Source: Pandoraea anhela (GTDB lineage: Bacteria > Pseudomonadota > Gammaproteobacteria > Burkholderiales > Burkholderiaceae). Taken from it: DNA of 64,000 nucleotides. The stretch spans positions 1 through 64,000 of the forward strand of contig NZ_CABPSB010000016.1 of the NCBI RefSeq assembly GCF_902459655.1. The letters are read 5' to 3'. The translations under genes were made by a program, and so were the position numbers. Within the stretch, counting starts at the first letter, position 1. Every line of letters starts with the position of its first letter. A model generated the notes under the pieces. The model had not been told where the DNA came from, did no database searches, and was given only the letters and a program-made list of their open reading frames with translations. Of the stretch, positions 544 through 39,181 are shown piece by piece.

Positions 544-766
544 GCAGATATTTGGTCTGTTACAAATAGTTACAAAAAAAAATTTCAAAAGTCAATTTAC
601 GGACACCCGCCAGGGCGGCCGAAGACAAGTGCTCTTGCAAAGCCCGTCCGACATTTTAGGATGTCTTCGAGAGAACCAAAGAAAATTTGAACGCACCGCT
701 CAAGAACTTTGCGTCTGCCAGTTTTTTGGGGTTGATAAATAGCGCCATATCCACGGGGACAAGCAG
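544..766 (+). other. AT-rich leader upstream of the recombinase operon
   Basis: No ORF of note. The region is clearly AT-rich (A-run near 573-582) and presumably holds the operon promoter, although no strong -35/-10 pair stands out. A weak Shine-Dalgarno (GGGGAC) lies just before the ATG at 767. Confidence 0.4.
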
Positions 767-7254: not shown

Positions 7255-7357
7255 GTGATAGCGAGGGTACACGCAAAGTCTGTGTTGTTCGACCGGGAGT
7301 TGTTCAAAATCTGCCGAACTCCTTGAATATAAGGGGAATTTTCTATGAGCAACTCGG

Positions 7358-8350
7358 TTACGAAAGCGAAAAATCGAACTCGTCGAGAAACAGCACGCCG
7401 CGATGAGCAAGACTGATTTCGCCGGGCCGTGGCACGCTCCCGCCGCCGACCAGTGCCGCAGAGGATGCCGTGTGATGCGGCGCGCGAAAGGGGCGACGCC
7501 CCCAATGCCGCGTGTCGAACCCCTGCGCACTCAGGCTCGCGAGTGTGGCGGCCTCCACGGCCTGTGCCTTGGTCAAGGGCGGTAGCAGTCCCGCAAGACG
7601 CGTCGCCAGCATCGACTTGCCGGTCCCCGGGGGGCCGTAGAACAGGATGTGATGGCCGCCCGCCGCAGCCACCTCCAGCGCCCGCTTGGCGTGCGCCTGT
7701 CCTTTGATGTCCACCATATCGGCCATCCCGGCGCCTATCCCGGCGGCTATCTCGCCTGCGGTTGCCGCCGGCGACGCCGCATCGCCCCCCGACGTTTGCG
7801 GCGCCACCGCGCGCGGTAGCGGCGTGGCGACCTCCGGCGCTGCGAGGTGGGCGCAGACGTCGAGCAGCGTTCGTGCGCCGTAGACCGTCGCCGCTTCGAC
7901 GAGTGCCGCCTCCTGTGCACTGCTCACAGGCAAGACCAGCGCGCGCCCGGACGGCTGCGCAGCCATCGCACTTGCCATCGCCAGCCCGCCTCGCACCGGG
8001 CGCAACTCCCCGGTCAGCGACAACTCCCCCGCAAACTCGTGTGTGCGCAGACCCGCCTCGGGGAGTTGGCCGCTCGCGGCCAGAATGCCCAGCGCGATAG
8101 GCAAGTCGAAGCAGCCGGATGCTTTCGGCAAATCCGCCGGCGCCAGATTGATCGTGATGCGTCTTGCCGGAAACTCGAAACGGCTGTTCTGCAAGGCGCT
8201 GCGCACACGCTCCCGGCTTTCCTTGACCTCGGTGTCCGGCAGGCCCACCAGCGACAGACCCGGCAGTCCGTTCGCCAGATGCACCTCGACCGTGACCGGA
8301 CGCGCCGCCATTCCTGTGATCGCCCGGCTGCTGACAACTGCCAATGACAT
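7358..8350 (-). pseudogene. comM: comM/yifB, truncated by island insertion (330 aa left)
   Basis: ComM is an AAA+ hexameric helicase that drives branch migration of incoming DNA in natural transformation; older names are YifB or Mg-chelatase-like protein. What remains is the N-terminal Lon-protease-like fold (about residues 1-170), the linker, Walker A (GPPGTGKS) and the start of Walker B (GVLFLDE). The final residues FDFSLS are encoded by island DNA. The intact protein is about 500-520 residues, so the sensor and C-terminal regions are lost and the product cannot be a working ATPase. The start MSLAVVSSRAI fits the family. Loss should lower, though not necessarily abolish, transformation with divergent DNA. 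Confidence 0.9.
7376..7387. other. Island/comM junction (attachment site)
   Basis: The comM frame matches the family up to the codons for L-D-E (plus-strand 7379-7387). Beyond that the protein reads FDFSLS and stops, where intact homologues continue LPEFDR. The crossover therefore lies at or within a few bases of the GAG codon. The other att copy, needed to define the core, is outside the window. Confidence 0.7.
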
Positions 8351-8869
8351 GACTTCCCTCCGTTTTCATTCCCTTGGCACCCCGGCGCGCTCCCGTTTCT
8401 CCCCGCCTTGATGAGGCATTGATGAGGTGTTGACGATGCGTTTGCGGTGAAGCGACAAAGGAGATGTACTGCCCCGTTGAGGTCGATAGTCGCGCAATCG
8501 CGCCGCACGGCACAACGCCTTATCGGCCCAACGACAGGGCAGGAGGCGTGTTTTCGGATGTCCGGCGTTACGTGATCGGACACGTCCATCGCGCGAACCG
8601 GAGGATTCCGATATCGCGTTCGGAAATCCGGCAACCGTCGAGCGTGGCGCGTCAGACGCGCGGATGGGACCCCGGCAGGCGTAAGGCCGCAGAGCGAGGG
8701 CTCCGTCGAGGGAGGAATGGAGAACTGGGGGGAGTTGAGGGAGGAGTGAGGGGGAGCGAGGGGGAGCGAGGGGGAGCGAGGGGGAACGAGGGGGAACGAG
8801 GGGGAACGAGGTGGCACAGAGGGCTGCACAGAGCGACGTCGCGCAGGCGCGCGAGCCCGGACGTAACAA
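8351..8869. other. Intergenic gap between comM and ubiK
   Basis: No gene is seen here. The gap is unusually long for two genes that read in the same direction. It is dominated by purine-rich plus-strand sequence, including the tandem 10-bp repeat array at 8751-8810. The comM promoter presumably lies in the part next to 8350, but no clear -35/-10 is visible. Confidence 0.5.
8751..8810. repeat. Six-copy 10-bp G-rich tandem repeat
   Basis: Three copies of GGGGAGCGAG are followed directly by three copies of GGGGAACGAG, with looser purine-rich sequence just before. One strand is almost pure purine. The clean A/G split between the two halves suggests recent slippage expansion from two parental units. 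No function is evident. Confidence 0.9.
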
Positions 8870-8887
8870 GGGGCGCTGTTGCGCCCC
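8870..8887 (-). terminator. Hairpin terminator after ubiK
   Basis: On the minus strand GGGGCGC-aaca-GCGCCCC is followed by TTGTT. It sits 10 nt past the ubiK stop codon. The stem is strong but the T-tract is weak. Confidence 0.6.
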
Positions 8888-8896
8888 TATGAGTCG

Positions 8897-9145
8897 TCAG
8901 TCTTGCGCTTCGCTGCGCAGGCCTTCGAGTTCGGCCACCCGTTTCTCCAGCGCTTCGAGCTTCTCGCGCGTGCGGGCGAGCACTTGCGCCTGCACGTCGA
9001 ATTCCTCGCGCGTGACCAGATCGAGCTTGGTGAAGCCCTGGTTGAGCAGGCTCTTAACGTTGCGTTCGATATCCTTGGCGGGCGATTGCTTGAGCATCTC
9101 GCTCACCTTGGCTTGCATGTCTTGCAGGATCTCGTTCGGTTTCAT
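8897..9145 (-). CDS. ubiK: Ubiquinone biosynthesis accessory factor UbiK (YqiC family), 82 aa
   Basis: Small coiled-coil protein that binds UbiJ and lipids and supports the soluble Ubi complex making ubiquinone. The N-terminal part (MKPNEILQDMQAKVSEMLKQ) is an amphipathic helix. The middle LLNQGFTKLDLVTREEFDVQ and the C-terminal leucine-rich coiled coil (LARTREKLEALEKRVAELEGL) match the YqiC family in order and spacing. The ATG at 9145 was chosen over an upstream in-frame start at 9274 because the family begins here and GAGGAAGG lies just before it. Its 5' leader faces the porin-glnK-amtB promoter region. Confidence 0.88.
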   Translation of the reverse strand: MKPNEILQDMQAKVSEMLKQSPAKDIERNVKSLLNQGFTKLDLVTREEFDVQAQVLARTREKLEALEKRVAELEGLRSEAQD

Positions 9146-9167
9146 AGCCTTCCTCTCGTCGTTTCTT

Positions 9168-9201
9168 TGCACCGATTTGGTGCTTGCACCGTCAGTGTGC
9201 T
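9168..9201 (+). promoter_or_regulatory. Two adjacent NtrC-like binding sites
   Basis: TGCACCGATTTGGTGCT is followed directly by TGCACCGTCAGTGTGCT. Both fit the NtrC enhancer pattern TGCACC-N5-GGTGCA, the first almost perfectly. They lie about 280 bp upstream of the predicted sigma-54 start site, a normal enhancer distance, and inside the leader of divergent ubiK. A further TGCA-rich stretch at 9221-9236 may be a weaker site. Confidence 0.7.
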
Positions 9202-9457
9202 TCGCCGTGCCGGTACGACCGGTGCATGGTGGTGCATCGGGTGCGTCCCTCAATAATTGGCGCAACTCTATCACCGTTTCTCGCGACCAGCCAGAGACCG
9301 TCGGCGCTCACCCGTACCGGTTCAGGCTTCGACACAGTTTGTCGTGCTTCGTTGCCGTTGTGTGACGTTGCTCGCCCACCTCACTTTCCCGGAAATTTGC
9401 CAATTTTTTATCCCGAAATCCGTATCTTGCGCGTCGCAGCTCAAGCGGTCGAAGGAG

Positions 9458-9474
9458 CTGGCACGGGAGTTGCT
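9458..9474 (+). promoter_or_regulatory. Sigma-54 (RpoN) promoter of the porin-glnK-amtB operon
   Basis: CTGGCACGGGAGTTGCT matches the -24/-12 consensus YTGGCACG-N4-TTGCW at every defined position. Transcription should begin near 9485, giving a leader of about 55 nt before the porin. Together with the upstream NtrC-like sites this predicts nitrogen-limitation control of the whole operon. Confidence 0.88.
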
Positions 9475-9539
9475 CTACCTAGCCCAGGACCTGCCGCACG
9501 CTGTACCAAGACGTTGAATGTCAACTTAAGGGGAAAGTG

Positions 9540-10725
<1,186 letters not shown>

Positions 10726-10749
10726 AGGTCCTAATAAGAGACAACAATC

Positions 10750-12282
10750 ATGAAAAAACTGCTTGCCAAACTCTTGCTCGCCGCCGCTTTTGCTGGTGTT
10801 GTGGGCACCGTGGGCCTCGGCTCGACCGCTGCGCTCGCGCAGGACGCCTCGGCGCCTGCCGCCGCTTCGGAAGCGTCTGCCCCTGCCGCTGCGACGGCCG
10901 CACCCGCTGCCGCACCGGCATCCGCCGCTCAGGCCGCTGCACCGGCCGCCCCGGCAGCCGCCACCCCCGTGCCCGCCAACAAGGGCGATACGGCGTGGCT
11001 GCTGACCTGTACCGCACTTGTGATTCTCATGACGCTGCCCGGCCTGGGCCTGTTCTACGGCGGTCTCGTGCGCTCGAAGAACATGCTCTCCGTGCTGATG
11101 CAGTGTTTCATCATCTTCTCGCTGGTGGTCGTGCTCTGGGCGATCTACGGCTATAGCATCGCGTTCACGGAAGGCGGGGCATTCTTCGGTGGCTTCGATC
11201 GCCTGTTCCTGAAGGGCATGACGCCGGACTCGGTGGCCGCGACCTTCAGCAAGGGCGTGAACGTGCCGGAGTACGCCTACATGGCCTTCCAGGCAGCGTT
11301 CGCCGCGATCACCTGCGCGCTGATCGTCGGCGCCTTCGCCGAACGCGCCAGATTCTCGGCCGTGCTGCTCTTCACCGTCATCTGGTTCACGTTCTCGTAC
11401 CTGCCGATGGCGCACATGGTCTGGTTCTGGGCGGGCCCGGATGCCTACACCGATGCCGCCGCTGCCGATGCCGCCACCGCACATGCCGGCTGGCTGTTCC
11501 AGAAGGGCGCGCTCGACTACGCCGGCGGCACGGTGGTTCATATCAACGCCGCCATCGCAGGTCTCGTGGGTTCGTACATGGTCGGCAAGCGTGTGGGCTT
11601 CGGCAAGGAAGCGTTCAAGCCGCACTCGCTCACCATGACGATGATCGGCGCCTCGCTGCTCTGGTTCGGCTGGTTCGGTTTCAACGCCGGCTCGGGTCTG
11701 GAAGCCAACGGCGGTGCAGCACTCGCCTTCGTCAACACGCTGCTCGCGACCGCCGCTGCCACGCTGTCTTGGACGGCCGGTGAGTGGATCGGCAAGGGCA
11801 AGCCGTCGATGCTCGGTGGCGCATCGGGTGCGGTGGCCGGTCTGGTGGCCGTGACCCCGGCCGCCGGTTTCGTGGGTCCGATGGGTTCCATCGTGCTCGG
11901 CCTGCTCGCCGGTGTGATCTGCCTGTGGGGCGTGAACGGTCTGAAGCGCCTGCTCAAGGCCGACGATGCGCTCGACGTGTTCGGCGTGCACGGTGTGGGC
12001 GGTATGCTCGGCGCGATTCTGACGGGCGTGTTCGCTGCCCCGTCGCTCGGCGGAACGGGCATCTACGATTACGTGGCCAATGCCGTGGCGCCGGATTATT
12101 CGATTGCCGGTCAGGTCTGGATTCAGTTCCAGGGTGTGTTGACCACGCTCGTGTGGTCGGGTGTGGTGGCGTTCATCGCCTTCAAGATCGCCGACATCGT
12201 GCTGGGCCTGCGTGTGCCGGAAGACGAAGAACGCGAAGGTCTGGACATCACTTCGCACGGCGAGTCGGCCTACCACAACTGA
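10750..12282 (+). CDS. amtB: Ammonium transporter AmtB, 510 aa
   Basis: Inner-membrane channel for NH4+/NH3. A cleavable signal peptide (to about residue 27) leads into an unusually long Ala/Pro-rich linker (about residues 28-75), then about eleven membrane helices beginning DTAWLLTCTALVILMTLPGLGLF. The twin pore histidines sit in the fifth and tenth helix regions (VVHINAAIAGLVG and VFGVHGVGGMLGA). The C-terminal tail ends in the GlnK-contacting region after LRVPEDEEREGLD. The family is about 400-430 aa; the excess here is the linker. It is cotranscribed with glnK and followed by a strong terminator. Confidence 0.96.
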   Translation: MKKLLAKLLLAAAFAGVVGTVGLGSTAALAQDASAPAAASEASAPAAATAAPAAAPASAAQAAAPAAPAAATPVPANKGDTAWLLTCTALVILMTLPGLGLFYGGLVRSKNMLSVLMQCFIIFSLVVVLWAIYGYSIAFTEGGAFFGGFDRLFLKGMTPDSVAATFSKGVNVPEYAYMAFQAAFAAITCALIVGAFAERARFSAVLLFTVIWFTFSYLPMAHMVWFWAGPDAYTDAAAADAATAHAGWLFQKGALDYAGGTVVHINAAIAGLVGSYMVGKRVGFGKEAFKPHSLTMTMIGASLLWFGWFGFNAGSGLEANGGAALAFVNTLLATAAATLSWTAGEWIGKGKPSMLGGASGAVAGLVAVTPAAGFVGPMGSIVLGLLAGVICLWGVNGLKRLLKADDALDVFGVHGVGGMLGAILTGVFAAPSLGGTGIYDYVANAVAPDYSIAGQVWIQFQGVLTTLVWSGVVAFIAFKIADIVLGLRVPEDEEREGLDITSHGESAYHN

Positions 12283-12694
12283 TCGCAGGCGCCGATCACG
12301 GGCGCCGATCACAACGGATCGACGGTCTCCCCCGTCCGATCGCAAGGTTTTGCCCCGGCTCAGGCCGGGGTCATCCAGAGGAGTCGCTGGTGGCCGGTCG
12401 GACAGCCGGCGCCGGCATTGCGCGGGCACCCGAACGGGTGCCCGTTTTTTTGTCTGCGGCTTTCGTGCGCGGTGCCTTGTCCGGGATATCTCGCGATGTC
12501 GCGTGCGCGACATGGTGGCCGATTCGGGGGCAGGCGATGCCCGCGCTTGCGATTCGCCGTTTCGCCCCCACCTCCTCTCACCGCAGCATCACACCGTACC
12601 TTCCCCGCCGGTGCCCCTTCCCGGGGCATGGCGAACGGCGGAAGCGTGCGGCAGATGCTCTACAATCGATATTCCATCTGGATATGAGAGAAGC
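12283..12694. other. Gap between amtB and gshA
   Basis: Contains the amtB terminator and otherwise no gene. A possible gshA -10 (TACAAT, 12661-12666) lies about 30 nt before the gshA start, but no good -35 stands in front of it. Confidence 0.5.
12423..12451 (+). terminator. Rho-independent terminator after amtB
   Basis: The perfect 10-bp stem CGGGCACCCG-aa-CGGGTGCCCG is followed by seven T residues, a textbook intrinsic terminator for the porin-glnK-amtB transcript. Confidence 0.92.
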
Positions 12695-29209: not shown

Positions 29210-29553
29210 TCCTCGTCATCGTTGCCGTCAACGGCATCGGTGGATTCCCGCCGATTTCTTTTTCCTCTCCCTCTCCTCGTCGTTTTCCCTTGCGTGGCCC
29301 ACGCGGCATGCCGTTCCGATACGTCGGGTCGAGGCTGGCACCCACGCACCCGCAGCCTGCGTCCTACATGACCTTGCAGGTGTTCCGCGCTCTGCCGCTT
29401 CGTTTAAATGTGGTTTCACGGCGTGCATGAATGCGGGATCAAGATGAGGCCTGTGCCCCATCGATGCGAGATGTTCGGGAACGTTCTCATCGCAAGGTCT
29501 GCGTTGTTTCTCGCCATGACGTCGCCGTTCGGCGAATTCTCGGGAGGTGGGCA
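29210..29553 (+). promoter_or_regulatory. Leader region of the diaminopropionate gene cluster
   Basis: No gene is seen. This region must contain the promoter of the cluster. A short dyad ACCTTGCAGGT (29369-29379) and a wider CCTGC/GCAGG pair around it are the only palindromes near where a LuxR-type regulator could bind, but they do not match a standard 20-bp lux box. GGGAGG (29542-29547) is the Shine-Dalgarno of the first gene. Confidence 0.4.
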
Positions 29554-30648
29554 GTGGGCTATCAGCACGAAACGTTGGCGGTGCCGCATCAGGTCGAATC
29601 GGCGCGACGCGATCGATCGGCCGACGCACTGAAGTTGCGTGTCGACGGCGAATTTCTCCGTCCCACGGTGCCGGTTTTCGCCGCTGTCGAGGGTCTGTGC
29701 GCCGCAACGATCAACCTCAAGATGGAGGGGTTGAACGCAGTGGGCTCGATCAAACTCAAGACGGCGATTCAATTGATCGAAGACCTTGAGGCAACGCATC
29801 GAATTCGCCCGGACACCCGGATCGTCGAGTCGTCGTCGGGAAATCTCGGGGTGGCGCTCGCGATGGTGTGCGCCAATCGCGGGTACCGCTTTACCTGTGT
29901 GACCGATCCCAACACCTCGCGTCAGGCGGTGCGCAGCATGCAGGCCGCAGGCGCACGGGTCGTGCGGGTCGAGCGCCGTGATGCGCAGGGGGGGTATCTT
30001 GCGACGCGTATTGCGTGGATTCGTGAGCAGGTGGCGCGAGATCCTCGCTGCCTCTGGGTCAACCAGTACGCCAATCCGAGCAACTGGCGCGCGCATTTTC
30101 GATGGACGGCGCCGGAGATTTTTTCAGCGTATCCCGATGTCGATCATCTCTTCGTCGGGGCTGGCACGACCGGCACATTGATGGGCTGTCTGCATTATGT
30201 CCGCGCGCATCGCTTGCCGACGCGGGTAATCGCCGTCGATGCCGAAGGTTCGGTCACGTTCGGCGGACCGCCCGGGCCGCGCCGTATTCCCGGGCTCGGC
30301 GCCAGCTGTCGGCCGCCGTTATGCGAGCCGCCCGATGCCGAGTTGCCTGACGCCATCGTCCATGTCCCCGAGGCCGACACCGTACGAATGTGTCGCGCCC
30401 TGGCGCTACGCGGCTTGCTGAGCGGCGGTTCGACGGGCAGCGTGCTGCGCGCGGTGCAGATGTCGTCGGCGGACATCGCGGCGAGCGACACCGTCGTCGC
30501 CATCGCACCGGACATGGGCGACAAGTACCTCGACACGATCTACGACCCCGAGTGGGCCGCGGCATACGTTGCTGGACAGCGTGACGCATCCCCGCTGCCC
30601 GGCGCAGCCGCCCACGTCGTTGAAACCGTCTCCCCCACGCTGTCATGA
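29554..30648 (+). CDS. sbnA: SbnA-like ACEGA synthase (diaminopropionate pathway, step 1), 364 aa
   Basis: PLP enzyme of the cysteine-synthase fold. Staphylococcal SbnA joins O-phospho-L-serine and L-glutamate to form N-(1-amino-1-carboxyl-2-ethyl)-glutamic acid (ACEGA). Blocks shared with SbnA rather than CysK/CysM are ESSSGNLGVALAMVC, GGYLATRIAWI, WVNQYANPSNW, VDAEGSVTFGG and the C-terminal PDMGDKYLDTIYDPEW. The PLP lysine is probably K67 in NAVGSIKLKT. The GTG at 29554 is preceded by GGGAGG at 7-nt spacing; upstream open frame is not conserved. It overlaps sbnB by 4 nt, the same pairing as in staphyloferrin B clusters. Confidence 0.9.
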   Translation: MGYQHETLAVPHQVESARRDRSADALKLRVDGEFLRPTVPVFAAVEGLCAATINLKMEGLNAVGSIKLKTAIQLIEDLEATHRIRPDTRIVESSSGNLGVALAMVCANRGYRFTCVTDPNTSRQAVRSMQAAGARVVRVERRDAQGGYLATRIAWIREQVARDPRCLWVNQYANPSNWRAHFRWTAPEIFSAYPDVDHLFVGAGTTGTLMGCLHYVRAHRLPTRVIAVDAEGSVTFGGPPGPRRIPGLGASCRPPLCEPPDAELPDAIVHVPEADTVRMCRALALRGLLSGGSTGSVLRAVQMSSADIAASDTVVAIAPDMGDKYLDTIYDPEWAAAYVAGQRDASPLPGAAAHVVETVSPTLS

Positions 30649-31697
30649 ACGCACTTCCCATTCCGCAATTTCGCGTGTTCACCGGCGAGCAGGTGGCTGC
30701 TGCCGTTCGCGGCGGACAACGCGCCATTCTCGACACGGTCGAAGCGGCTTATCGCGCACATCACGCCGGACGCACGGTCAATCCGGAAAGCCAGTTCCTG
30801 CGGTTCCCGGATGCGCAACGCAATCGCATCATCGCATTGCCCGCGCATATTCAGGGCGATGAAGGCGAAGGGATCACGGGCATCAAGTGGATTTCCAGTT
30901 TCCCGGAGAACATCGAGCGTGGTGTGCCGCGGGCGTCTGCCGTGCTCATCCTGAACGATGCCGCTACGGGGTATCCGATGGCTTGCATGGAGGCGAGCAT
31001 CATCAGTGCGGCCCGCACGGCGGCCAGCGCGGTCAGTGCGCTGCGGCGTCTCACGTGTGGCGATAGGCGTGGCGATAGGCGTGACGATAGGCGTCGGCAT
31101 CGCCGCGTGGCATTCGTCGGGGCAGGCGTCATCGCGCGTCACGTGGCCGAGTGCCTGCCGCTCGCGGCGTTGCCCGTCGAGGAGGTCGTCGTTCACGACC
31201 TGAACCCCGGGTACGCCGACTCGCTTGCAAACCGAATCGCCGCACACACCGGCATCGATGCGCGTACCGACATATCGCTGGAATCCGTCGTCAGGCGATC
31301 GGACGTCATCGTGTTCGCGACCACGGCATCGTCGCCCTATCTGGACAATCCCGACTGGTTCTCGCACTGCCCGGTCGTACTGCACTTGTCGCTTCGTGAC
31401 CTTGCACCCTCGATCGTGCTCGAGGCCTATAACGTCGTCGACGATATCGAACATTGTCTTCGGGCGAAGACATCGCTTCATCTCACCGAAGTCGAGACGG
31501 GCCATCGACGCTTCGTCACGACATCGCTGCCGCATCTGCTTTGCGGCGGCGAACTGCCCGCACGTGACCGGCCCCTCGTCTTCTCCCCTTTTGGACTCGG
31601 CATTCTCGACATCGCCGTCGGGCGCTGGGTCTATGAACGTCTGGCCGACCGGCAGGCACCTGTTCCTCGTTTTTTCTTTGATTTGCAACGCGCATGA
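30645..31697 (+). CDS. sbnB: SbnB-like ACEGA dehydrogenase (diaminopropionate pathway, step 2), 350 aa
   Basis: Member of the ornithine cyclodeaminase/mu-crystallin family. SbnB oxidatively cleaves ACEGA with NAD+ to L-2,3-diaminopropionate and 2-oxoglutarate. Recognisable parts are GITGIKWISSFPENIERGVPRASAVLILND, the Rossmann loop VAFVGAGVIARHVAE and the C-terminal FSPFGLGILDIAVGRWVY. A 12-bp repeat inserts GDRRGDRRDDRR just before the Rossmann fold; it is in frame and lies in a loop. ATGA overlaps couple it to both neighbours. With SbnA it gives a complete L-Dap supply, and no siderophore synthetase is nearby. Confidence 0.9.
   Translation: MNALPIPQFRVFTGEQVAAAVRGGQRAILDTVEAAYRAHHAGRTVNPESQFLRFPDAQRNRIIALPAHIQGDEGEGITGIKWISSFPENIERGVPRASAVLILNDAATGYPMACMEASIISAARTAASAVSALRRLTCGDRRGDRRDDRRRHRRVAFVGAGVIARHVAECLPLAALPVEEVVVHDLNPGYADSLANRIAAHTGIDARTDISLESVVRRSDVIVFATTASSPYLDNPDWFSHCPVVLHLSLRDLAPSIVLEAYNVVDDIEHCLRAKTSLHLTEVETGHRRFVTTSLPHLLCGGELPARDRPLVFSPFGLGILDIAVGRWVYERLADRQAPVPRFFFDLQRA
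31059..31094. repeat. In-frame 12-bp triplication inside sbnB
   Basis: Three copies of GRCGATAGGCGT encode GDRR-GDRR-DDRR in the loop before the nucleotide-binding fold. The length keeps the reading frame, and copy number may vary between strains. Confidence 0.85.
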
Positions 31698-33163
31698 CCA
31701 CAGTTTCCTTCTGCCCCTCATCTGCAACGCCCGATTCCACTGCGAACGCCGCCGAAGGTTTTGCCGACGTACTCGTCGGACTGCAATACGGCGACGAAGG
31801 CAAAGCGAAGATCATCGACACCCTCGCCCCCGGGTACGACGTGATCGCGCGCTTTAACGGTGGCGCGAATGCCGGACACACCATCGACACGCCACAGGGA
31901 CGCATCGCACTCAAACAACTGCCTTCGGGAGTCTTTCATCCACATGCCGCGCTGTACATCGGATCGGGGTGCGCCATCAACCCGTGGAAGCTCGCCGATG
32001 AGATCGTGCAATTGCGGCAGATGGGCATCTCGCTCGAAGGACGGCTGCGTATCAGCGCGCGTGCTGCGCTGGTGCAGCCCCACCACATCGCGATGGACAG
32101 GCGTGGCAGCGACACGATCGGGACGACGGGAAATGGCATCGGGCCGTGCTATGCGGATCGCGCCTTGCGCGTGCGCAACGATACACGTGTGAATCTGATG
32201 CTCGGTGATCTGCTTGGCAATGAGGCGGAGACGGTGGCCTCGATGCGGGAGGTCTTCACGCGCATGATCAACGCGGAAGGCGGCGCCTCGCCGTGGGTCG
32301 CGGAAATGTCGGATCTGTTGCTGGGCTTGCCGGACATTGCGCGCATGCTGCGTGCTTACCTCGAGCCGGATCGCGGATGGCTGACCCATCGCGTAAAAGC
32401 TGGCGCGAAGGTGCTGTTCGAAGGCGCTCAGTCGGTGCTGCTCGATGTCGTCGACGGCAGTCAGCCGTATGTCACGTCGAGTCATACCGTGCCAGCCTAT
32501 GCGTATGTCGGCGGGGATCTCTCACCGAAGTACCACCGGCGAACCATCGGTGTCGCCAAGGCCATCATGTCGCGCGTGGGACGTGGCCCGTTTCCGTCCG
32601 AGCTTGGGGGCGAGCGTTCCGCGCAGTACTGCCACGAGGCGTCGCAGTCGAAGCTCGGCGAGCGCGAAGAGCAGTCACGCTTCTCGCCGCACACGCTGTT
32701 GCGATCGAGCGATCCGTTCGACGTGGGAACGGCATTGCGCATGCTCACCGGCGAGTACGGTACGGGGACCGGGCGGCCCCGTCGCATCGGCATGCTGGAT
32801 CTTGCGCAGTTAAGAGACGTCATCAGAACGCATGCCGTCGATTGCGTCTATCTCAACAAGGTGGATTGTCTGACGCATTACACGCGCTCGACCTATCAGG
32901 GGGTGCCGGTGCGTGTGCATCGCGAGGCGCTCACCGCAGACGTCATGCCGGACGTGCTGATCTACCCGGGGCTAACGGAGCATTCGGTCGACCTCGGACG
33001 TGCGGGCACGCTGGATTCCGCCATGAACGGTTTCATCGACTTCGTCGAGCGTCATATCGGCGCGCCCCTGGCGGGCCTCGGGCTCGGCCCGGAACGCGCG
33101 AGCCTCGTCTCGCTCGCGAACCGTCAGCCAGCGCTTGTTGCGGCGGGATTGCCCCATGGCTGA
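31694..33163 (+). CDS. Adenylosuccinate synthetase paralogue in a biosynthetic cluster, 489 aa
   Basis: Shares the PurA signature: P-loop GDEGKAKIID with the catalytic aspartate, NGGANAGHTI with the catalytic histidine, IGTTGNGIGP, LFEGAQSVLLDV, YVTSSHT, the IMP/GTP loop GTGRPRRIGMLD and the guanine-specificity NKVD. The C-terminal STGPDR of housekeeping PurA is GLGPER, and roughly 40 extra residues sit between GPFPSEL and the arginine loop. It could form amidine or amide bonds in the pathway, or be a drug-insensitive PurA protecting the producer. A housekeeping purA would normally lie elsewhere in the genome; I cannot see it. The ATG overlaps the sbnB stop, and its end overlaps the next gene by 8 nt. 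Confidence 0.85.
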   Translation: MTTVSFCPSSATPDSTANAAEGFADVLVGLQYGDEGKAKIIDTLAPGYDVIARFNGGANAGHTIDTPQGRIALKQLPSGVFHPHAALYIGSGCAINPWKLADEIVQLRQMGISLEGRLRISARAALVQPHHIAMDRRGSDTIGTTGNGIGPCYADRALRVRNDTRVNLMLGDLLGNEAETVASMREVFTRMINAEGGASPWVAEMSDLLLGLPDIARMLRAYLEPDRGWLTHRVKAGAKVLFEGAQSVLLDVVDGSQPYVTSSHTVPAYAYVGGDLSPKYHRRTIGVAKAIMSRVGRGPFPSELGGERSAQYCHEASQSKLGEREEQSRFSPHTLLRSSDPFDVGTALRMLTGEYGTGTGRPRRIGMLDLAQLRDVIRTHAVDCVYLNKVDCLTHYTRSTYQGVPVRVHREALTADVMPDVLIYPGLTEHSVDLGRAGTLDSAMNGFIDFVERHIGAPLAGLGLGPERASLVSLANRQPALVAAGLPHG

Positions 33164-34118
33164 TACGTCGCCGAGCGCCCTCGGTCTGCCGCACTTCGCT
33201 GACCGCGCCGGCATGGCCGATGCACAGCGGCCGTGGAGAGAGGTGGCCGCCGTGACACGGTGTGCGACCGAGACACCGTTCCCGGCCTTGCTGCCCGGAC
33301 ATCTGCTCTTCAACGTGTCGCTCATGCCGTATGCGATGCATCCTCGGGTGTGCGAGCGGGGGCAGTCCGTGCGCCAGCAGTTGAGCGCCATGCGACTCGA
33401 GGACTACCTGAACAAGACGGAGCGTGTCGAGTTGCACATCGTCAATCGGGCCATAGAACGGATGCTGGATCTGCCGGGGGCCGCCTCCGTCAGTCGCGAC
33501 GACTTGTTGGCGATCTACACCGACGAAGGTTTTCACACCTGGATGATGGAACGCTTCCGGGCGCAGATGCGCCGTGTGACCGGATGCGCGCTGGCGCAGC
33601 GAGCGTCGCCCAGCGTGAGGCGCGTGCTGGCGCTGTGCGAAGCCGTTCCGCCGGCACATCGAGACGTCGCGATCGTGGCGGCGGCATTGATAACCGAGAC
33701 GTTGATCACCGGCACGCTGCGCCAGGCGGGGGCGGGTGACGACATCTATCCGCCGGTGCGTACGCTGCTTGCCGAGCACGGGGCGGACGAAATGCGTCAT
33801 CAGGCGGCCTTTGTCAGATTCGCACGCGCGTGGGTACCGTCGCTGTCGGGCCAGGAGCGTGAGTTTCTCGACGAACTGATCCCGGAACTGATGGAAGCCT
33901 TTCTTTCGCCGGAACTGCCGTCATGGCATGCACATTTGTGCGCAGTGGGCCTGAGTGCGGGCGACGCGGATCGCGTGCTTCAGGACAGTGTCGATCCGTT
34001 GGCGGTTGGGATGCAGATGATGGAGGCGGCGCTGGTGCCCCGACGTCTTTTCGAACGGCTGGGGTTGTCGTGTGCCGAGCGCTTTGCACGACGTGTGAGC
34101 CGCTGGCGACCCCCTTGA
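33156..34118 (+). CDS. AurF-like di-iron N-oxygenase, 320 aa
   Basis: Helical ferritin-like protein with the seven-ligand pattern of AurF/CmlI-type amine oxygenases: a glutamate near 89-92 (TERVELH), E124xxH127 (DEGFH), E181 (TETLITG) and H208xxxE212xxH215 (HGADEMRH). Enzymes of this family turn an amine into hydroxylamine, nitroso or nitro using O2. Length fits (AurF about 330). In this cluster the obvious substrate is the beta- or alpha-amine of diaminopropionate or a derivative. The ATG at 33156 lies inside the end of the preceding gene, so translation is coupled. Confidence 0.82.
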   Translation: MADTSPSALGLPHFADRAGMADAQRPWREVAAVTRCATETPFPALLPGHLLFNVSLMPYAMHPRVCERGQSVRQQLSAMRLEDYLNKTERVELHIVNRAIERMLDLPGAASVSRDDLLAIYTDEGFHTWMMERFRAQMRRVTGCALAQRASPSVRRVLALCEAVPPAHRDVAIVAAALITETLITGTLRQAGAGDDIYPPVRTLLAEHGADEMRHQAAFVRFARAWVPSLSGQEREFLDELIPELMEAFLSPELPSWHAHLCAVGLSAGDADRVLQDSVDPLAVGMQMMEAALVPRRLFERLGLSCAERFARRVSRWRPP

Positions 34119-34138
34119 GCGCTGGCGACCCCCTTGAG
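34101..34138. repeat. 19-bp perfect tandem duplication at a stop codon
   Basis: CGCTGGCGACCCCCTTGAG occurs twice without spacer. The first copy contains the last codons and stop of the N-oxygenase gene, so the second copy lies just outside the frame and has no coding effect. Confidence 0.9.
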
Positions 34139-34320
34139 CGCGGGCGATGTCGGTCGCCGACCCCGCGCGACGCTCGTGTGTCATTGCAGGAGCGCCGGAC
34201 CGACGAAGCGACCAATGAAGTGCTCGAAGTCGCTACCGATAACGCACCGCAGAAAGCGACGCCATGCGGCAGACTCGCCGTCATCGCACGCTTATCGATG
34301 AACGTGATCAGGAGGGATGT

Positions 34321-35367
34321 GTGATCAGTCACTGGCTGGCCCCCGATTTGACGATGAGCGCGCCGGACTATCGGGCGTTACTCGGTGCCGCATTGTCGTT
34401 CAAGCGTCGATATCCGTTGCACACCGAAGGCGCGCTTCGGGACAAGACGATCTACTTCATTTTTTACAATGCGTCGCTGCGCACGCGCAGCAGTTTCCAG
34501 ACGGGGTTGGCCCGATTGGGCGGAAATGCCATCGTGCTCGATCCGCATGCCGGTATTTACACCCCGGCACTGCCCGATGCGGAAATTCCCTACACGACGG
34601 AACGGGTGGCCGACGTGGCGCGCGTGCTCTCGTCATACGGCGATGCGCTGGCGATTCGCATGTATGGCGAGCCGGCCGGATGGGTATACGGCGCGGCGCA
34701 TCGGCATCTCGAAGCCTTCGCCGAATCGAGTCGCGTGCCGGTCATCAACATGGAGTGCGACCGCTTTCATCCATGTCAGGCGCTGGCCGACGTGATGACG
34801 TTGCGCGAACAACTCGGCGTGCTGACAGGGCGGCGGCTATGCATCAGTTGGGCCTATTCGGGAAGCTGGCATAAACCGGTGGCGGTGCCGCAGAGCTTGT
34901 TGTTAGCCGCAGTCAAAACCGGGATGGATGTGACGCTCGCGCACCCGTCGTCATTCGCACTCGACCCTCAGGTGATGTCGGCGGCGGCGCAGTTTGCCGA
35001 ACAGACAGGCGCGAGCCTTCGGGTGACGCACGATTTGCGCGACGGCGTTGCCGATGCGCACGCCGTCTATGCCAAGTCGTGGTGCAGTCTCGATCATCTG
35101 CCCCGGCATCGTGGGGAGACGGTCGACGAAACGGCAATGCGCGATGCGTTCGAACGGCATCGGGACTGGTGTATCGATGCCGACCTGATGCGTCTTGCCG
35201 TACCGAATGCCGGGTATCTCCATTGCTTGCCCGTCGATCGCGGGCAGGAGGTTTCCGATGCGGTGGTGGAGGGGCCGTCGTCGTGGGTCTTTGCGCAAGC
35301 CGCGAATCGTCTCCATGCACAAAACGCCGTGATGGCGCACTTGCTCAATCCGGGGTGTCTGGCGTGA
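34321..35367 (+). CDS. Ornithine-type carbamoyltransferase, 348 aa
   Basis: Transfers the carbamoyl group of carbamoyl phosphate to an amine. The carbamoyl-phosphate motif SLRTRSSFQTGLARLGGNA (SxRTR), HPCQALADVMTL and HCLPVDRGQEVSD of the OTC/acetyl-OTC family are intact; the second-substrate region around NMECDRF and SYGDALAIRMYGEPAGW is unlike standard ArgF. A side-chain-specific enzyme could convert diaminopropionate or its N-hydroxy form to a ureido or hydroxyureido amino acid. GTG start at 34321 with GGAGGG just upstream. The 200-nt gap before it is the only sizeable break in the cluster and may hold an internal promoter. Confidence 0.82.
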   Translation: MISHWLAPDLTMSAPDYRALLGAALSFKRRYPLHTEGALRDKTIYFIFYNASLRTRSSFQTGLARLGGNAIVLDPHAGIYTPALPDAEIPYTTERVADVARVLSSYGDALAIRMYGEPAGWVYGAAHRHLEAFAESSRVPVINMECDRFHPCQALADVMTLREQLGVLTGRRLCISWAYSGSWHKPVAVPQSLLLAAVKTGMDVTLAHPSSFALDPQVMSAAAQFAEQTGASLRVTHDLRDGVADAHAVYAKSWCSLDHLPRHRGETVDETAMRDAFERHRDWCIDADLMRLAVPNAGYLHCLPVDRGQEVSDAVVEGPSSWVFAQAANRLHAQNAVMAHLLNPGCLA

Positions 35368-36668
35368 TGCCCACATTTTCCTACCGGTATGCCTGTGTGC
35401 GGTGCGCCACGCCGCAGGCTTGGGGGACGATTCGCTATCGCTGCGAAGTCTGTGGGCAGAACTTGCGTGTCCAACGCAAAGCGGATGCGGACTCGCCTTC
35501 CGCCGCAGCCATCGTCGATGCGTTTCGGGGGAGCGGCATACACGGGATGTGGCGATACGCGCCCCTCTTGCCGGTCGAGGCGAAGTGGGCCAGCCCGCTG
35601 CACGTTGGCGGAACCCCGATGATCGATTGCGGCAGGATCGGTGATGTCGGCGAGGTGGGTCGCGCCGGCGGCGTGAGGCTCTGGGTCAAGGACGACTCGC
35701 GCAACCCGAGCGGATCGCTCAAGGACCGCGCCACCGAACTGGTGCTCGCGGTGGCGAAGCGCGCCGGGTGTACGCATGCGGTGACCGCGTCCACCGGCAA
35801 TGCCGGGGCGTCGCTCGCGTGCGTTGCAGCGTCACAGGGCATGCCCGCTACGGTGGTCGTGCCGGTCGAGACACCGCACGTCAAACTGGCGCAGATTCGC
35901 GCTTATGGCGCCAGGCTTGTTGAGGTCGACGGGACCTACGATGACGCCTTCGACATTGCGGAGCGAATGGCGGACGACGCGCACATCTGCTGCCGAAACA
36001 CCGGATTCAATCCGTTTACGCGAGAGGGAAAGAAAACGTGCGCGTTCGAGATTGCGGAAGCGTTCGACTGGCGTGTGCCGGATTGGGTGGTCGTGCCGAC
36101 GGGGGACGGCAATATCCTGTCGGGCATTGCGGCGGGTTTTATCGATCTTTTCGCGTTGGGGATCACCTCGGCGGTTCCGCGATTGCTGGCCGCGCAAGCC
36201 ACGGGTTCGAACAGCATCTCGCGCGATTGGCGGGAGAACGATGAGACGCACGCATTTCCGGAGTCGCCGACGGCCGTCACGCCGAACACCTTGGCGGACA
36301 GCCTTTCGGTCAGCCGTCCGCGAGACCACTTCGCAGCGCTGCACGCATTACGGGTAACGAGAGGCGTGTGCGTTGCGCTGGACGACGCGCAGATCGTCGA
36401 GGCATCGTGCACGCTCGCGCAGCGCTTCGGCCTATGGTTCGAGCCATCGACGGCAGCAGGATATGCGGCGTTGCAAGCGTGCCAGGCGACCGGCCGCATC
36501 GAGGCCGGGGCTCGTGTCGTGCTGCTTGGCACGGGCAGTGGGCTGAAATCACCGCAGTGCTTCGACGGTGTCGGTGTCGCCGCGCGACCGGTAGACAGGG
36601 GCGCGACGGTCGCGTCTCGTCGAACTCCCGACGCTCGCAAAGCGAACGACGTGGGGAGGCGCACATGA
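35367..36668 (+). CDS. Threonine-synthase-like PLP enzyme, 433 aa
   Basis: Fold-type II PLP enzyme with an N-terminal zinc ribbon (C10xxC13 and C26xxC29), as in many archaeal-type threonine synthases. The PLP lysine is K119 in NPSGSLKDRAT, the phosphate-binding region is STGNAGASLACVAASQG, and TGDGNILSGIAAGF follows. Such proteins catalyse beta- or gamma-replacement and elimination. In a metabolite cluster it may build or join an amino-acid unit, for example by replacement on phosphohomoserine; the exact reaction is unknown. ATG overlaps the previous stop by one base (TGATG). Confidence 0.78.
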   Translation: MPTFSYRYACVRCATPQAWGTIRYRCEVCGQNLRVQRKADADSPSAAAIVDAFRGSGIHGMWRYAPLLPVEAKWASPLHVGGTPMIDCGRIGDVGEVGRAGGVRLWVKDDSRNPSGSLKDRATELVLAVAKRAGCTHAVTASTGNAGASLACVAASQGMPATVVVPVETPHVKLAQIRAYGARLVEVDGTYDDAFDIAERMADDAHICCRNTGFNPFTREGKKTCAFEIAEAFDWRVPDWVVVPTGDGNILSGIAAGFIDLFALGITSAVPRLLAAQATGSNSISRDWRENDETHAFPESPTAVTPNTLADSLSVSRPRDHFAALHALRVTRGVCVALDDAQIVEASCTLAQRFGLWFEPSTAAGYAALQACQATGRIEAGARVVLLGTGSGLKSPQCFDGVGVAARPVDRGATVASRRTPDARKANDVGRRT

Positions 36669-37717
36669 GTCAAATGAGTCCAATGAGTCCAATGCGTCAT
36701 AAGAGGCACGCGATGCCCGTGACGCAGGGGGAGCACGTCATCGTCGTGGGCGCCGGCGTCAGCGGTTTGACCACGGCCGTCGCATTGTCCCTCGCCGGTT
36801 GCCGCGTCACGATTCACGCGGCCGAAGGACCTTCGCAAACGACGTCGGCGCTGGCGGCAGCGATCTGGCATCCGTTTTATCAAGCGCCCGACTTCGTTTA
36901 TCTGGCGCGGGCGCGGCAAACCTACGCAACGATGTGTCGGTTGTCCACCGATGCCACATCTGGTGTGCTGATGCGGTCGCTGACCGAGTACTTTCGACGC
37001 GATGCCGGTGCGCCATGGTGGGCCGAATGCGCGAGTCGTCTCAAGCGTCTGCCGGAAACCGAGGTGCCGGCCCGTTTTGCCTGCGCTTATCGGATGGACG
37101 TGCCTGTCGCCGACACGGGGGCTTACCTGCGATATTTGATGAACATGTTTCTCGAACTCGGCGGGCAATACGTCCAGCGTCGCGTCGATTCGATGACGTC
37201 GTTACTCGACAAGGCGGATATCGTGGTGAATTGTTGCGGCTACGGCAGCCGGCAATTCGGCGACGACCATTTGTCGCTGTCGCGTGCCATCGTGCTGCGC
37301 GCCGCCCGCGACGATGCCGTGCGTGGCTGCTTCATCGACGACTCCGACCCTCACGCGCCCACATACATCGTGGAGCGGGACGACGACATCGTGCTGGGGG
37401 GGACGGCCGATCCGGCGCTGACCTCGACGGTGATCGGTGCGCATCAGATCGACGATATCGTGCGTCGCTGCGCGCGACTGTGCGAAGGCGTCGCGGCATT
37501 GCGGGTGATCGACGCGCGTGTCGGATTTCGTCCCATGCGTCGTGCGCCTCGTGTGGCGCGCGACAGCGAACACCCGCGACTGTTTCACAACTATGGCCAC
37601 GGTGGGGGAGGTTTCACCCTGTCCTGGGGCTGTGCGAACGACATTGTGCGTCTGGCGGGTCTCACATCTGCCGGGGCCCCACGACGATCGATCGACAGCG
37701 ATGCCGCGCAACCGTAA
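36665..37717 (+). CDS. D-amino-acid-oxidase-like FAD enzyme, 350 aa
   Basis: FAD-binding GxGxxG loop (HVIVVGAGVSGLTTAVAL) near residue 25, the active-site region TSALAAAIWHPFY, and the DAAO C-terminal signature HNYGHGGGGFTLSWGCA with the ribityl-binding motif. True D-amino acids, glycine-type substrates, or a cyclised pathway intermediate are all possible. The first ten residues (MSQMSPMSPM) come from a short repeat, and translation may begin at a later methionine (MPVTQGEHV). It overlaps the PLP gene by 4 nt. Confidence 0.83.
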   Translation: MSQMSPMSPMRHKRHAMPVTQGEHVIVVGAGVSGLTTAVALSLAGCRVTIHAAEGPSQTTSALAAAIWHPFYQAPDFVYLARARQTYATMCRLSTDATSGVLMRSLTEYFRRDAGAPWWAECASRLKRLPETEVPARFACAYRMDVPVADTGAYLRYLMNMFLELGGQYVQRRVDSMTSLLDKADIVVNCCGYGSRQFGDDHLSLSRAIVLRAARDDAVRGCFIDDSDPHAPTYIVERDDDIVLGGTADPALTSTVIGAHQIDDIVRRCARLCEGVAALRVIDARVGFRPMRRAPRVARDSEHPRLFHNYGHGGGGFTLSWGCANDIVRLAGLTSAGAPRRSIDSDAAQP

Positions 37718-37728
37718 AAGGAGACCCG

Positions 37729-38373
37729 ATGGAACTGGATCCGTCGACGCTCGACGAAGCAAGCATCTACAACTTCATGATGAGCACGATCCTGCCGCGT
37801 CCGATTGCATGGGTGAGCACCGTGGACGCGCAAGGGCGGTCGAATCTCGCGCCGTATGCCTACTTCATGGGCGTGTGCTGCGTACCGATGACGGTGCTTT
37901 TCTGCCCTGTCGTGCCCCCACCACCGAAGCGCAAGAAGGATACGCTGCATAACATCGAAGCCGTACCGGAGTTTGTGGTGAACGTGGCCGGCAGCGGGTG
38001 TATCGACGCCGTCAACTTGTCCGCCGCACCATTGCCCGCGGGCGAATCGGAGTTCGACCTCACCGGTGTGACACCGGTGCCCTCGTCGCGTGTGCGGCCG
38101 CCGCGCGTGAAGGAGGCGGCCGTCGCGTACGAATGCCGGGTGCGCGACATTATCGAGATCAGTGCGGCGCCGGGCGGCGGATGGGTCGTCCTCGGCACAG
38201 TCCTCGCCGCGCATGTCGACGACACCTTGCTCGACCCGGTTAGCTGTCACGTCGACCTGCATGCGCTCAGTCCGGTCGGGCGCCTCGGCGGCGGTATGTT
38301 CGTGAACGCTGCGAGTGACACGTTCACGTTGACACGCTATAAGACGCTTGCCGATCTGGCGGCACGCAAGTAG
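37729..38373 (+). CDS. Flavin-reductase-like FMN protein, 214 aa
   Basis: Split-barrel flavoprotein of the flavin reductase-like family. The start MELDPSTLDEASIYNFMMSTILPRPIAWVSTVDAQGRSNLAPYAYFM is typical, with the FMN-phosphate region following. Relatives reduce FMN for partner oxygenases or act as oxidases themselves. It could supply reduced flavin or electrons to the N-oxygenase, or act on a pathway intermediate. Shine-Dalgarno AAGGAG at 7-nt spacing. The last 50 bp overlap the convergent luxR gene. Confidence 0.82.
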   Translation: MELDPSTLDEASIYNFMMSTILPRPIAWVSTVDAQGRSNLAPYAYFMGVCCVPMTVLFCPVVPPPPKRKKDTLHNIEAVPEFVVNVAGSGCIDAVNLSAAPLPAGESEFDLTGVTPVPSSRVRPPRVKEAAVAYECRVRDIIEISAAPGGGWVVLGTVLAAHVDDTLLDPVSCHVDLHALSPVGRLGGGMFVNAASDTFTLTRYKTLADLAARK

Positions 38374-39181
38374 ACGGGGAGGGTGCCAGCAACGTGACGT
38401 CGTCGAGCAATCCGTAGTCGCTGGCCAGTTTCGCCGCGCGATGCCGGCTCGATACGTCGAATTTGCGCATGACGCTGCGCAGATGAAAGACGACGCCGTG
38501 TTCGGAGATGGTGAGAATGCGTCCGATCTCCCATGAGGTTTTTCCCCGGGCCACCCACCTCAGGCACTCGCGCTCGCGCGGCGTGAGCACCGGGGCACGG
38601 CGACGCGCCGCGTCGCGTTGCACGATGCGCCACACGGCCTCGTGCACGTGCGTCGCCAGCACGCCCCCCGCATGCTGCATCCATGTATGTGCACACGCAT
38701 GCGCCGTGTCGTGCGGATGACGTGTTCGGGAAAGGCACGGCGATGGCGGTCGCCAGGGCGACGACAGGCTCAACGTGCCCGATGCGCCGGAGGGCGTGTA
38801 GACCGGGTATGTCACGCCGAAGCGCAGTCCCGCCCTGCGTTGTTCTTCCAGTAGCCGCCGGGTGTCGGGCGATGTGTACAAGCCGGCTTTCCATTCCACC
38901 GGCGTGAGTTGGCGTGCGGCGAGCGCGAGTGTCGGATCGATTGCCTCGAATCCCTGCGCGTCGTAGCGCGCTTGCCACGCCTGCGGCAGATTGTCGAGAC
39001 GGGGCGTCGCCACCGTGCCGTCGGGCAACGGGAATTGCCCGCGGTAGCAGAAGTAGCGCTGCCGCAGCGCGCCGCACAGCGACAACAGCAGCGCGCGCAG
39101 CGTGTCGAATTCGGTGGCGCAAGACAATGCGCTCAGGCCGTCGGCAAACGAGCGGAGAGGAAAACGACGCGTAGCTCGCAT
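38324..39181 (-). CDS. LuxR-family AHL-binding regulator (solo), 285 aa
   Basis: An N-terminal autoinducer-binding domain (about 20-160) keeps the residues that contact acyl-homoserine lactone: W69, Y73, D82-P83 and W97 in the pattern QAWQARY...AIDPTL...TPVEW. A C-terminal GerE HTH (about 200-260, LTPRERECLRWVARGKTSWEIGRILTISEHGV) binds DNA. No luxI is in the window, so it would respond to a signal made elsewhere. It is convergent with the cluster and overlaps the flavin-reductase end by 50 bp; the natural target is the cluster promoter before 29554. There is no good Shine-Dalgarno at the ATG, so the start is uncertain. Confidence 0.85.
   Translation of the reverse strand: MRATRRFPLRSFADGLSALSCATEFDTLRALLLSLCGALRQRYFCYRGQFPLPDGTVATPRLDNLPQAWQARYDAQGFEAIDPTLALAARQLTPVEWKAGLYTSPDTRRLLEEQRRAGLRFGVTYPVYTPSGASGTLSLSSPWRPPSPCLSRTRHPHDTAHACAHTWMQHAGGVLATHVHEAVWRIVQRDAARRRAPVLTPRERECLRWVARGKTSWEIGRILTISEHGVVFHLRSVMRKFDVSSRHRAAKLASDYGLLDDVTLLAPSPSTCVPPDRQASYSVST

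Follow-up and report, generated by a model that had tools for sequence, protein, structure and literature searches.

The window analysed here, a 64,000-nucleotide stretch of Pandoraea anhela DNA (the start of contig NZ_CABPSB010000016.1), contains a candidate biosynthetic operon built on L-2,3-diaminopropionate (L-Dap): eight genes on one strand, followed by a convergent gene for a LuxR-type regulator. We label their products A (SbnA), B (SbnB), C (PurA-like), D (AurF-like), E (carbamoyltransferase), F (ThrC-like), G (D-amino-acid-oxidase-like), H (flavin-reductase-like) and I (LuxR), and list them in Table 1. Each of the nine proteins matches a Pfam family of the named kind above its cut-off, in agreement with the families of the initial annotation, whose coordinates and strands also stand. 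Its description of the genes as nearly all overlapping by 1-8 nt slightly overstates the case: overlaps of 4, 4, 8, 1 and 4 nt occur at five of the seven same-strand junctions, but with the starts chosen here the D-E junction has a gap of 202 nt, and the G-H junction has one of 11 nt. The H and LuxR genes share 50 nt. The start of sbnA is a GTG preceded by a GGGAGG ribosome site (an alternative in-frame ATG lies at 29431), and for E we chose the start at 34321, with an alternative in-frame ATG at 34264. A further promoter or control element may lie in the gap between the AurF-like and carbamoyltransferase genes (34119-34320); at 17 of 19 loci from the genus this gap measures 67-411 nt.

Table 1. 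Features of the locus; coordinates refer to the window unless a locus number (L) precedes them.
Feature	Coordinates	Strand	Evidence
Conserved upstream element CCTGCGTCCTACATGACCTTGCAGG; inner 18 bp CCTACATGACCTTGCAGG of lux-box form	29356..29380	+	conservation
A: SbnA, pyridoxal-phosphate (PLP) enzyme, O-phosphoserine + Glu step to L-Dap	29554..30648	+	TIGR03945 379 bits; best PDB match SbnA 5d87
B: SbnB, dehydrogenase releasing L-Dap	30645..31697	+	TIGR03944 370 bits
C: PurA-like paralogue, candidate self-protection enzyme or ligase	31694..33163	+	PF00709 319 bits
D: AurF-type diiron N-oxygenase	33156..34118	+	PF11583 72.4 bits, cut-off 29.6; ligand positions invariant
E: carbamoyltransferase, kin to enzymes of purine-degradation-like loci	34321..35367	+	PF02729 + PF00185; tree
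F: ThrC-like fold-type II PLP enzyme	35367..36668	+	PF00291 236 bits; tree
G: D-amino-acid/D-aspartate-oxidase-like FAD enzyme	36665..37717	+	PF01266 130 bits; best PDB match 6rkf
H: flavin-reductase-like FMN protein	37729..38373	+	PF01613 77 bits; PDB relatives include 4z85
I: LuxR-type regulator, autoinducer-binding domain	38324..39181	-	PF03472 88 bits, PF00196 65 bits
NHL beta-propeller gene of some relatives	L035:3618-4475; L049:12292-13146; pieces in L152:1971-2824		

SbnA and SbnB both exceed curated equivalog cut-offs (379.1 bits against 349.95 for TIGR03945 and 370 bits against 326.9 for TIGR03944), which upholds the identities first proposed for them. The SbnA/SbnB route to L-Dap is established chemistry, and by membership of the two families A and B are predicted to make L-Dap from O-phosphoserine and glutamate; CmnB (8if7) is also found among the PDB relatives of SbnA. 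C, D, E, F and G score under the curated cut-offs for PurA, AurF sensu stricto, ornithine carbamoyltransferase (OTC), N-acetylornithine carbamoyltransferase (AOTC), YgeW, ThrC and ThiO. C reaches 296.8 bits against 402 for NF002223 and 262.2 against 395.55 for TIGR00184, D reaches 36.4 against 620 for the 4-aminobenzoate N-oxygenase model NF045603, and G reaches 71.2 against 250.8 for the glycine oxidase model TIGR02352. E was tried and rejected as OTC (232.5 bits against 306), as AOTC (282.4 against 288) and as YgeW (NF005538, 122.3 against 453; TIGR03316, 116 against 500), and F was rejected as threonine synthase ThrC (TIGR00260, 163.3 against 167.1; NF006050, 246.3 against 303); the trees described below also set E apart from OTC and F apart from ThrC. 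Because C to G lie under these cut-offs and H has no NCBIfam match, C to H look like paralogues with roles of their own.

The proposed AurF-like identity of D is borne out by its Pfam score and by seven positions (E92, E124, H127, E181, H208, E212 and H215) that are invariant across 8 aligned AurF-like proteins and that, in an alignment with 3chh, face what we take to be the metal ligands of AurF. G resembles D-aspartate and D-amino-acid oxidases, with the D-aspartate oxidase 6rkf as its best PDB match (5.5e-29), and the PDB relatives of H include component B of nitrilotriacetate monooxygenase and a 2-nitrobenzoate nitroreductase (4z85, 8e-20).

We find that the arrangement is strongly conserved. 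In a search of 398 genomes drawn from the family of P. anhela (335 of them, without a match, lie outside the listing), an AurF match at E <= 1e-10 occurs in 43, and a strong orthologue (E <= 1e-79) occurs in 28 of the 32 listed Pandoraea genomes, our own included. All 19 loci fetched from the genus carry A to I in one order and at one site, with a ComF/methyltransferase pair on one side and the gene before coxB on the other, and by carbamoyltransferase the closest named locus is that of Pandoraea capi (90%). In both of the cluster-free genus genomes that we read, the flanking genes adjoin and the LuxR gene is missing as well, so LuxR I is part of the cluster unit. Signs of decay are seen at L039, where the carbamoyltransferase is shortened, and at L047, where a 1.6-kb gap precedes a shortened PurA-like gene and the ThrC-like gene is also shortened. 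An NHL beta-propeller gene, absent from the window and from the initial annotation, stands between H and LuxR at L035, L049 and L053 of the 19 loci and at L068, L069 and L070 of a set of 17 named Pandoraea loci; one genome with this gene occurs in both sets, and as the sets (L035-L054 and L055-L071) share some genomes we do not sum their counts.

To look beyond the genus, we scanned the genome collection with a carbamoyltransferase alignment. This gave 159 relatives, and the best 80, which we kept, include the 17 named Pandoraea and 61 other loci, mostly metagenome-assembled genomes of uncultured bacteria and archaea. Kitasatospora phosalacinea, an actinomycete (Actinomycetota), carries A-B-C-D-E-F-G in identical order at 40-64% identity, followed at the contig edge by a gene for an AMP-forming ligase (PF00501). 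Its H homologue (63%) sits at the edge of a different contig, which presumably adjoins the first, and is followed there by a small carrier-like protein with a DSL motif and then a HAD hydrolase; the carrier-like protein has no Pfam or NCBIfam match, its likeness to carriers being judged by eye, and the guessed open reading frames upstream of the cluster have no Pfam match. Candidatus Burkholderia humilis carries A, B, D, E, F and G in the same order, less C. One of its contigs ends within an AMP-forming ligase gene, and another begins within a ligase of the same kind and continues with a carrier-like gene (likewise recognized by eye; its product is 40% identical to that of Kitasatospora over 86 aa, E 1e-7), H and the NHL-propeller gene. 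This locus is decaying, with in-frame stops in the ligase and in H, and the C subfamily is not found in the whole genome, in which the closest matches to C are true PurAs.

Three lineages in two phyla thus share a core of A, B, D, E, F, G and H, with C in Pandoraea and Kitasatospora and the ligase and carrier-like gene in Kitasatospora and Ca. B. humilis. The operon is real and not a chance arrangement, since its order and place are kept at all 19 genus loci and the A-G order is repeated in an actinomycete; the gene set is conserved across genomes, a check that the initial annotation had proposed. Its description of the route as carrier-free holds for Pandoraea and has to be limited to that genus, because both other lineages have the ligase and the carrier-like gene. 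A search of our own genome gave no ligase homologue at E <= 1e-40, a negative of little weight because the search lacked a positive control. Outside Pandoraea the cluster seems to be rare: among 394 genomes of the family of Kitasatospora a PurA-like gene at E <= 1e-90 occurs only in that Kitasatospora, and among 398 genomes drawn from our own phylum a carbamoyltransferase at E <= 1e-90 occurs only in our own genome (one other listed genus member, G010, lacks the gene). Two further sets of matches were set aside: AurF-like matches on plasmids (7 records), of which the one inspected has no annotated Dap or PurA genes alongside, and SbnB relatives on Streptomyces plasmids, of which the one inspected is a different cluster of sbnA and sbnB with anthranilate genes.

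The region upstream of sbnA holds a further conserved feature, which the initial annotation had missed. In the window and all 17 named Pandoraea loci (18/18) the inner 18 bp fit CCTACAYGANNNTGCAGG, and the 25-nt form of the element is found in 16 of the 18. Allowing up to 3 mismatches, the 25-nt pattern has a single match in our whole 6.05-Mb genome against 0 in the control, and 0 are expected in shuffles of the window. The element has inverted ends, CCTACA and TGCAGG, and can be read as CCTACA-N6-TGCAGG, which is the form of a lux box. The divergent locus L035 has CTACAAGACCTTGTAG upstream of sbnA, where by eye we read a perfect palindrome, CTACAAG-AC-CTTGTAG. The classic lux box consensus, CTG-N10-CAG, was tried and rejected: it is absent from this stretch of the window, and the 2 of 17 relatives that have it upstream of sbnA have it placed elsewhere. 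LuxR I carries both the autoinducer-binding and the PF00196 domain, and by eye it retains residues that we take to be the known contacts of the autoinducer ligand. From the position and conservation of the box we infer that LuxR I binds it and acts there. Our own genome has two matches to the synthase family PF00765 (41.5 and 29.8 bits; cut-off 24), both on other contigs.

We now consider the origin of the carbamoyltransferase and its neighbor F. The motifs SLRTR (SxRTR) and HPCQ (HPxQ) of E, invariant across 8 aligned proteins, are the carbamoyl-phosphate motifs of transcarbamylases (PMC6022934). E shares 45-51% identity with the E-like enzymes of the 61 other loci and no more than 38% with plasmid-borne enzymes among the matches listed. 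Leaving carbamate kinase aside, homologues of E. coli reductive-urate genes occur in 34 of the 61 loci (47 when carbamate kinase is counted), and 26 hold a homologue of xdhA-D, ygfK or ssnA. Carbamate kinase itself is present in 37, a second carbamoyltransferase in 47 and a relative of F in 24, while 13 show some ygeX match at 1e-5, on stretches scoring higher with another query. These counts come from stretches of which 15 are shorter than 10 kb, and matches to amidohydrolase and M20 families are unspecific. We infer that these loci degrade urate. As a group (L074-L134, e.g. L097, L103 and L132) they pair two carbamoyltransferases with carbamate kinase and a ThrC-like enzyme, perhaps a variant that uses transcarbamoylases to remove both ureido groups and the ThrC-like enzyme to cleave Dap.

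A maximum-likelihood tree of 38 transcarbamoylases (midpoint root; 15 chosen loci of the 61, with matches of at least 250 aligned residues; Dap transcarbamylases of viomycin and zwittermicin left out) groups the four cluster enzymes at 100/100. They are nested in the E-like group, at 97/91 with Cloacimonadota-type rows and at 99/99 one step out, and lie apart from the second carbamoyltransferase of those loci and from OTC, AOTC and YgeW. A second tree covers the 24 loci whose F matches span 300 or more aligned residues; in it F falls with the PLP enzyme of those loci, at moderate support (82/76 to 92/96). In E. coli, YgeW and HyuA give albizziin in the reductive uric acid pathway, and in that characterized pathway diureidopropionate is dismantled to albizziin and Dap (PMC12507026), the order of the two cuts being disputed (PMC12990295). 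That Dap is the substrate of E and F would thus have two supports, the adjacent SbnA/SbnB and the kinship to purine-degradation-like enzymes. The initial annotation's carbamoylation step gains from this kinship to enzymes of loci resembling ureido-diaminopropionate catabolism, although carbamoylation of Dap as such already has precedent in viomycin and zwittermicin (PMC4581275, PMC6022934).

The initial annotation had given the PurA-like gene no role. C keeps D13, K16, N38, G40, H41, T42, T129, R143, Q224, T239, V273, G298, T301, R303, R305, K331 and D333 of E. coli PurA. The tabulated sites, whose roles we take as known, include catalytic D13/H41, the GTP motif NKxD and the IMP and aspartate contacts, and all are kept except R131, which is Asn. 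A role for the R303 site is also given in PMC8342488. We aligned five members of the C subfamily (from the window, L035, Kitasatospora, a second Pandoraea paralogue and a Caballeronia plasmid) with four true PurAs: position 131 is Arg in 4/4 true PurAs and Asn in 5/5 subfamily members, all five of which also have about 28-36 residues inserted before the aspartate loop, and two of which have Ser at position 301. Work by Wang and colleagues in 1995 reportedly dealt with the arginines of the PurA aspartate site, R131 among them. T300G and R147M/Q were dropped as subfamily marks, leaving R131N alone, because position 300, though Gly in all five, varies among true PurAs and position 147 falls in a gapped stretch. 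A resistant second target enzyme is attractive because hadacidin competes with aspartate at adenylosuccinate synthetase (Ki 0.19 uM in H. pylori; PMC6136348) and because a Dap with an oxidized side-chain nitrogen resembles alanosine, itself made from L-Dap (PMC11705231).

Ca. B. humilis has a broken native purA (its neighbors look by eye like hisZ, hflC, hflK, hflX and hfq) and, 4.3 kb beyond H, a second purA that is different and intact. Compared with 57 other genomes of its genus, this second purA matches 56 at 50-52%, the remaining one (60% complete) giving no match; in a plasmid collection its closest relatives (7 records, 72-77%) are purA genes carried by large Burkholderia replicons, and the three such loci inspected have the same divergent LysR-type neighbor as Ca. 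B. humilis, where LysR was recognized by eye. On the large Burkholderia replicons L187, L188 and L189 purA stands between two LysR-type regulator genes, near replication genes. The same PurA subfamily also occurs in a second Pandoraea operon, AraC-RidA-PurA-like-PNPOx-MFS (L150, G000:C10:23000-42999, ~7355-12360), and in like operons on Caballeronia plasmids (L158, and L159 with a gapped PurA); such an operon could confer resistance to a PurA inhibitor.

Taken together, we read the locus as a quorum-linked operon for a small N-oxygenated, carbamoylated L-Dap derivative that would act as an aspartate-like antimetabolite, a prediction from gene content to which we attach even weight for and against. 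In this scheme SbnA and SbnB would make L-Dap, D would oxidize one of its amines, and E would add a carbamoyl group, working in the opposite direction to its ureido-removing kin, with N-hydroxy-albizziine as one plausible intermediate. F and G might then rework the carbon end, for example by racemization or elimination and by oxidation at the alpha carbon, and H would supply or use reduced flavin. C would be a second, altered adenylosuccinate synthetase that sustains purine synthesis while the product blocks ordinary PurA, and LuxR I would act at the lux-type box before sbnA. A bolder form of the idea, which we regard as unlikely, has purine-degradation enzymes run in reverse and joined with SbnA/SbnB and an AurF-type oxygenase, yielding a hadacidin- or alanosine-like aspartate mimic that blocks adenylosuccinate synthetase (for example N-hydroxy-albizziine or, after carbon loss, N-carbamoyl-N-hydroxyglycine); the makers would survive through the resistant PurA subfamily (Arg131 to Asn) or a second purA, and quorum sensing would switch production on.

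Several points weigh against the antimetabolite scheme. The sequence of reactions, the carbamoylated position and what F, G and H do are guesses, and the ligase and carrier-like gene of both relatives are left unexplained by a scheme drawn for Pandoraea. The substrates of AurF-type enzymes with demonstrated activity are, to our knowledge, aryl amines. We saw no luxI gene at the locus. In 27 of the 61 loci we see no urate-type gene or carbamate kinase only, and the E tree has a midpoint root, with YgeW, AOTC and ArgF on long branches. C is 30-36% identical to true PurA, and its role need not be protection, since its close subfamily occurs in the AraC-RidA-PurA-PNPOx-MFS operons, which show no Dap genes in the stretches read. 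The position of the second purA in Ca. B. humilis may be chance, as it adjoins a LysR-type gene just as on the Burkholderia replicons, and the absence of C there is weak evidence because the locus is decaying.

The alternative that fares best concerns C itself, which could be a biosynthetic ligase that activates a carbonyl with GTP for attack by an amine and so couples a Dap-derived amino acid to a nucleotide, or closes or extends the ureido group to a guanidine-like product. C sits between SbnB and AurF inside the operon in both Pandoraea and Kitasatospora, the substitution and long insertion in all five aligned members would suit a changed function, and PurZ provides the precedent of PurA homologues that change substrate (PMC8342488). 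The retained nucleotide and aspartate-loop contacts argue the other way, as do the presence of the other core genes without C in Ca. B. humilis and the lack of a partner lyase among the nine proteins by Pfam. We consider this possibility a tentative one and narrowly favour self-protection as the role of C.

Ring closure is improbable. Here ureido-Dap would be cyclized and oxidized to a 2-aminoimidazole-type heteroarene on which AurF makes a nitro group, giving an azomycin-like nitroimidazole; this would suit the preference of AurF-type enzymes for aryl amines, and G and the PurA fold could provide oxidation and activation. The enzymatic oxidation of 2-aminoimidazole to azomycin is known, but the known route to azomycin begins with arginine and relies on RohS, a different oxygenase family (PMC10724926), and Pfam recognizes no cyclase among the nine proteins. 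A metal chelator, in which Dap with N-hydroxy groups serves as a small metallophore like Dap-containing siderophores or fragin, seems very improbable: SbnA/SbnB supply the Dap of staphyloferrin B (PMC3179956) and fragin is a Burkholderia diazeniumdiolate metallophore linked to a quorum-sensing signal (PMC5878181), yet no siderophore synthetase or receptor family is found among the nine proteins (Pfam) and the PurA link goes unexplained. Equally remote is the catabolic release by F of a ureido or hydroxyureido group from the Dap skeleton as an active, hydroxyurea-type small urea, for although F is kin to the PLP enzyme adjoining E-like transcarbamoylases in anaerobes and the NHL propeller of some clusters matches the PAM amidating lyase (3fvz, 9.6e-17, lower in its list of PDB matches than generic NHL proteins), building Dap merely to cleave it is wasteful, and G, H and the relatives' ligase and carrier are left unexplained.

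How does the predicted L-Dap antimetabolite operon compare with described systems? Alanosine, an antiviral and antitumour amino acid, acts through purine synthesis. Its pathway in Streptomyces alanosinicus (aln/ala) likewise starts from L-Dap and oxidizes the side-chain nitrogen, but it is attributed to an acyl-CoA-dehydrogenase-like N-hydroxylase together with a cupin protein and a source of nitrite or nitrosuccinate, and the available part of the source mentions no carbamoylation or PurA copy (PMC11705231); Pfam finds neither such an N-hydroxylase nor a cupin domain in our nine proteins. The Dap branches of viomycin, capreomycin and zwittermicin A feed peptide synthetases, of which Pfam finds none among the nine. 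As here, those branches make L-Dap and then apply a transcarbamylase, giving beta-ureidoalanine (PMC4581275, PMC6022934), but the viomycin/zwittermicin enzyme is OTC-like by description (PMC6022934), whereas E groups with purine-degradation-like loci. The reductive uric acid pathway of E. coli and anaerobes (ygeW-ygeX-ygeY-ssnA-hyuA-xdhD) shares relatives of E and F and ureido-Dap/Dap chemistry with our locus; it is catabolic and anaerobic, whereas here the carbamoyl step would run toward building, and the annotated E. coli urate cluster has no SbnA/SbnB, AurF or D-amino-acid-oxidase gene. PurA and phage PurZ share with C the family and the GTP, IMP and aspartate-loop residues, and C differs from PurA in the features described above. 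The fragin/valdiazen system (ham) of Burkholderia cenocepacia, compared by description only, also ties an N-oxygenated product to signaling (PMC5878181). Our searches of open-licence papers gave no described cluster with this gene set, in line with the initial annotation. A Dap-based amino-acid pathway is already known as a kind; what looks new is the gene set, the PurA subfamily, the origin of the carbamoyltransferase and the spread across phyla. Elsewhere in the window, positions 1-8000 have a G+C content of 0.51-0.56, against 0.60-0.68 for the rest, and are possibly acquired DNA.

Pandoraea are opportunistic lung bacteria, and Ca. B. humilis is a leaf symbiont. If the proposed reading is right, 28 of the 32 listed Pandoraea genomes would carry a family of biosynthetic clusters also present in a Kitasatospora and Ca. 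B. humilis; in Pandoraea these have no nonribosomal peptide synthetase (NRPS) or polyketide synthase (PKS) modules, and tools centred on NRPS/PKS may pass over them. Purine synthesis would be the likely target of its product, and the PurA subfamily could serve as a genome-mining marker. It would further mean that enzymes of ureido-diaminopropionate catabolism have been reused for synthesis and that an AurF-type oxygenase acts on an aliphatic amino acid.

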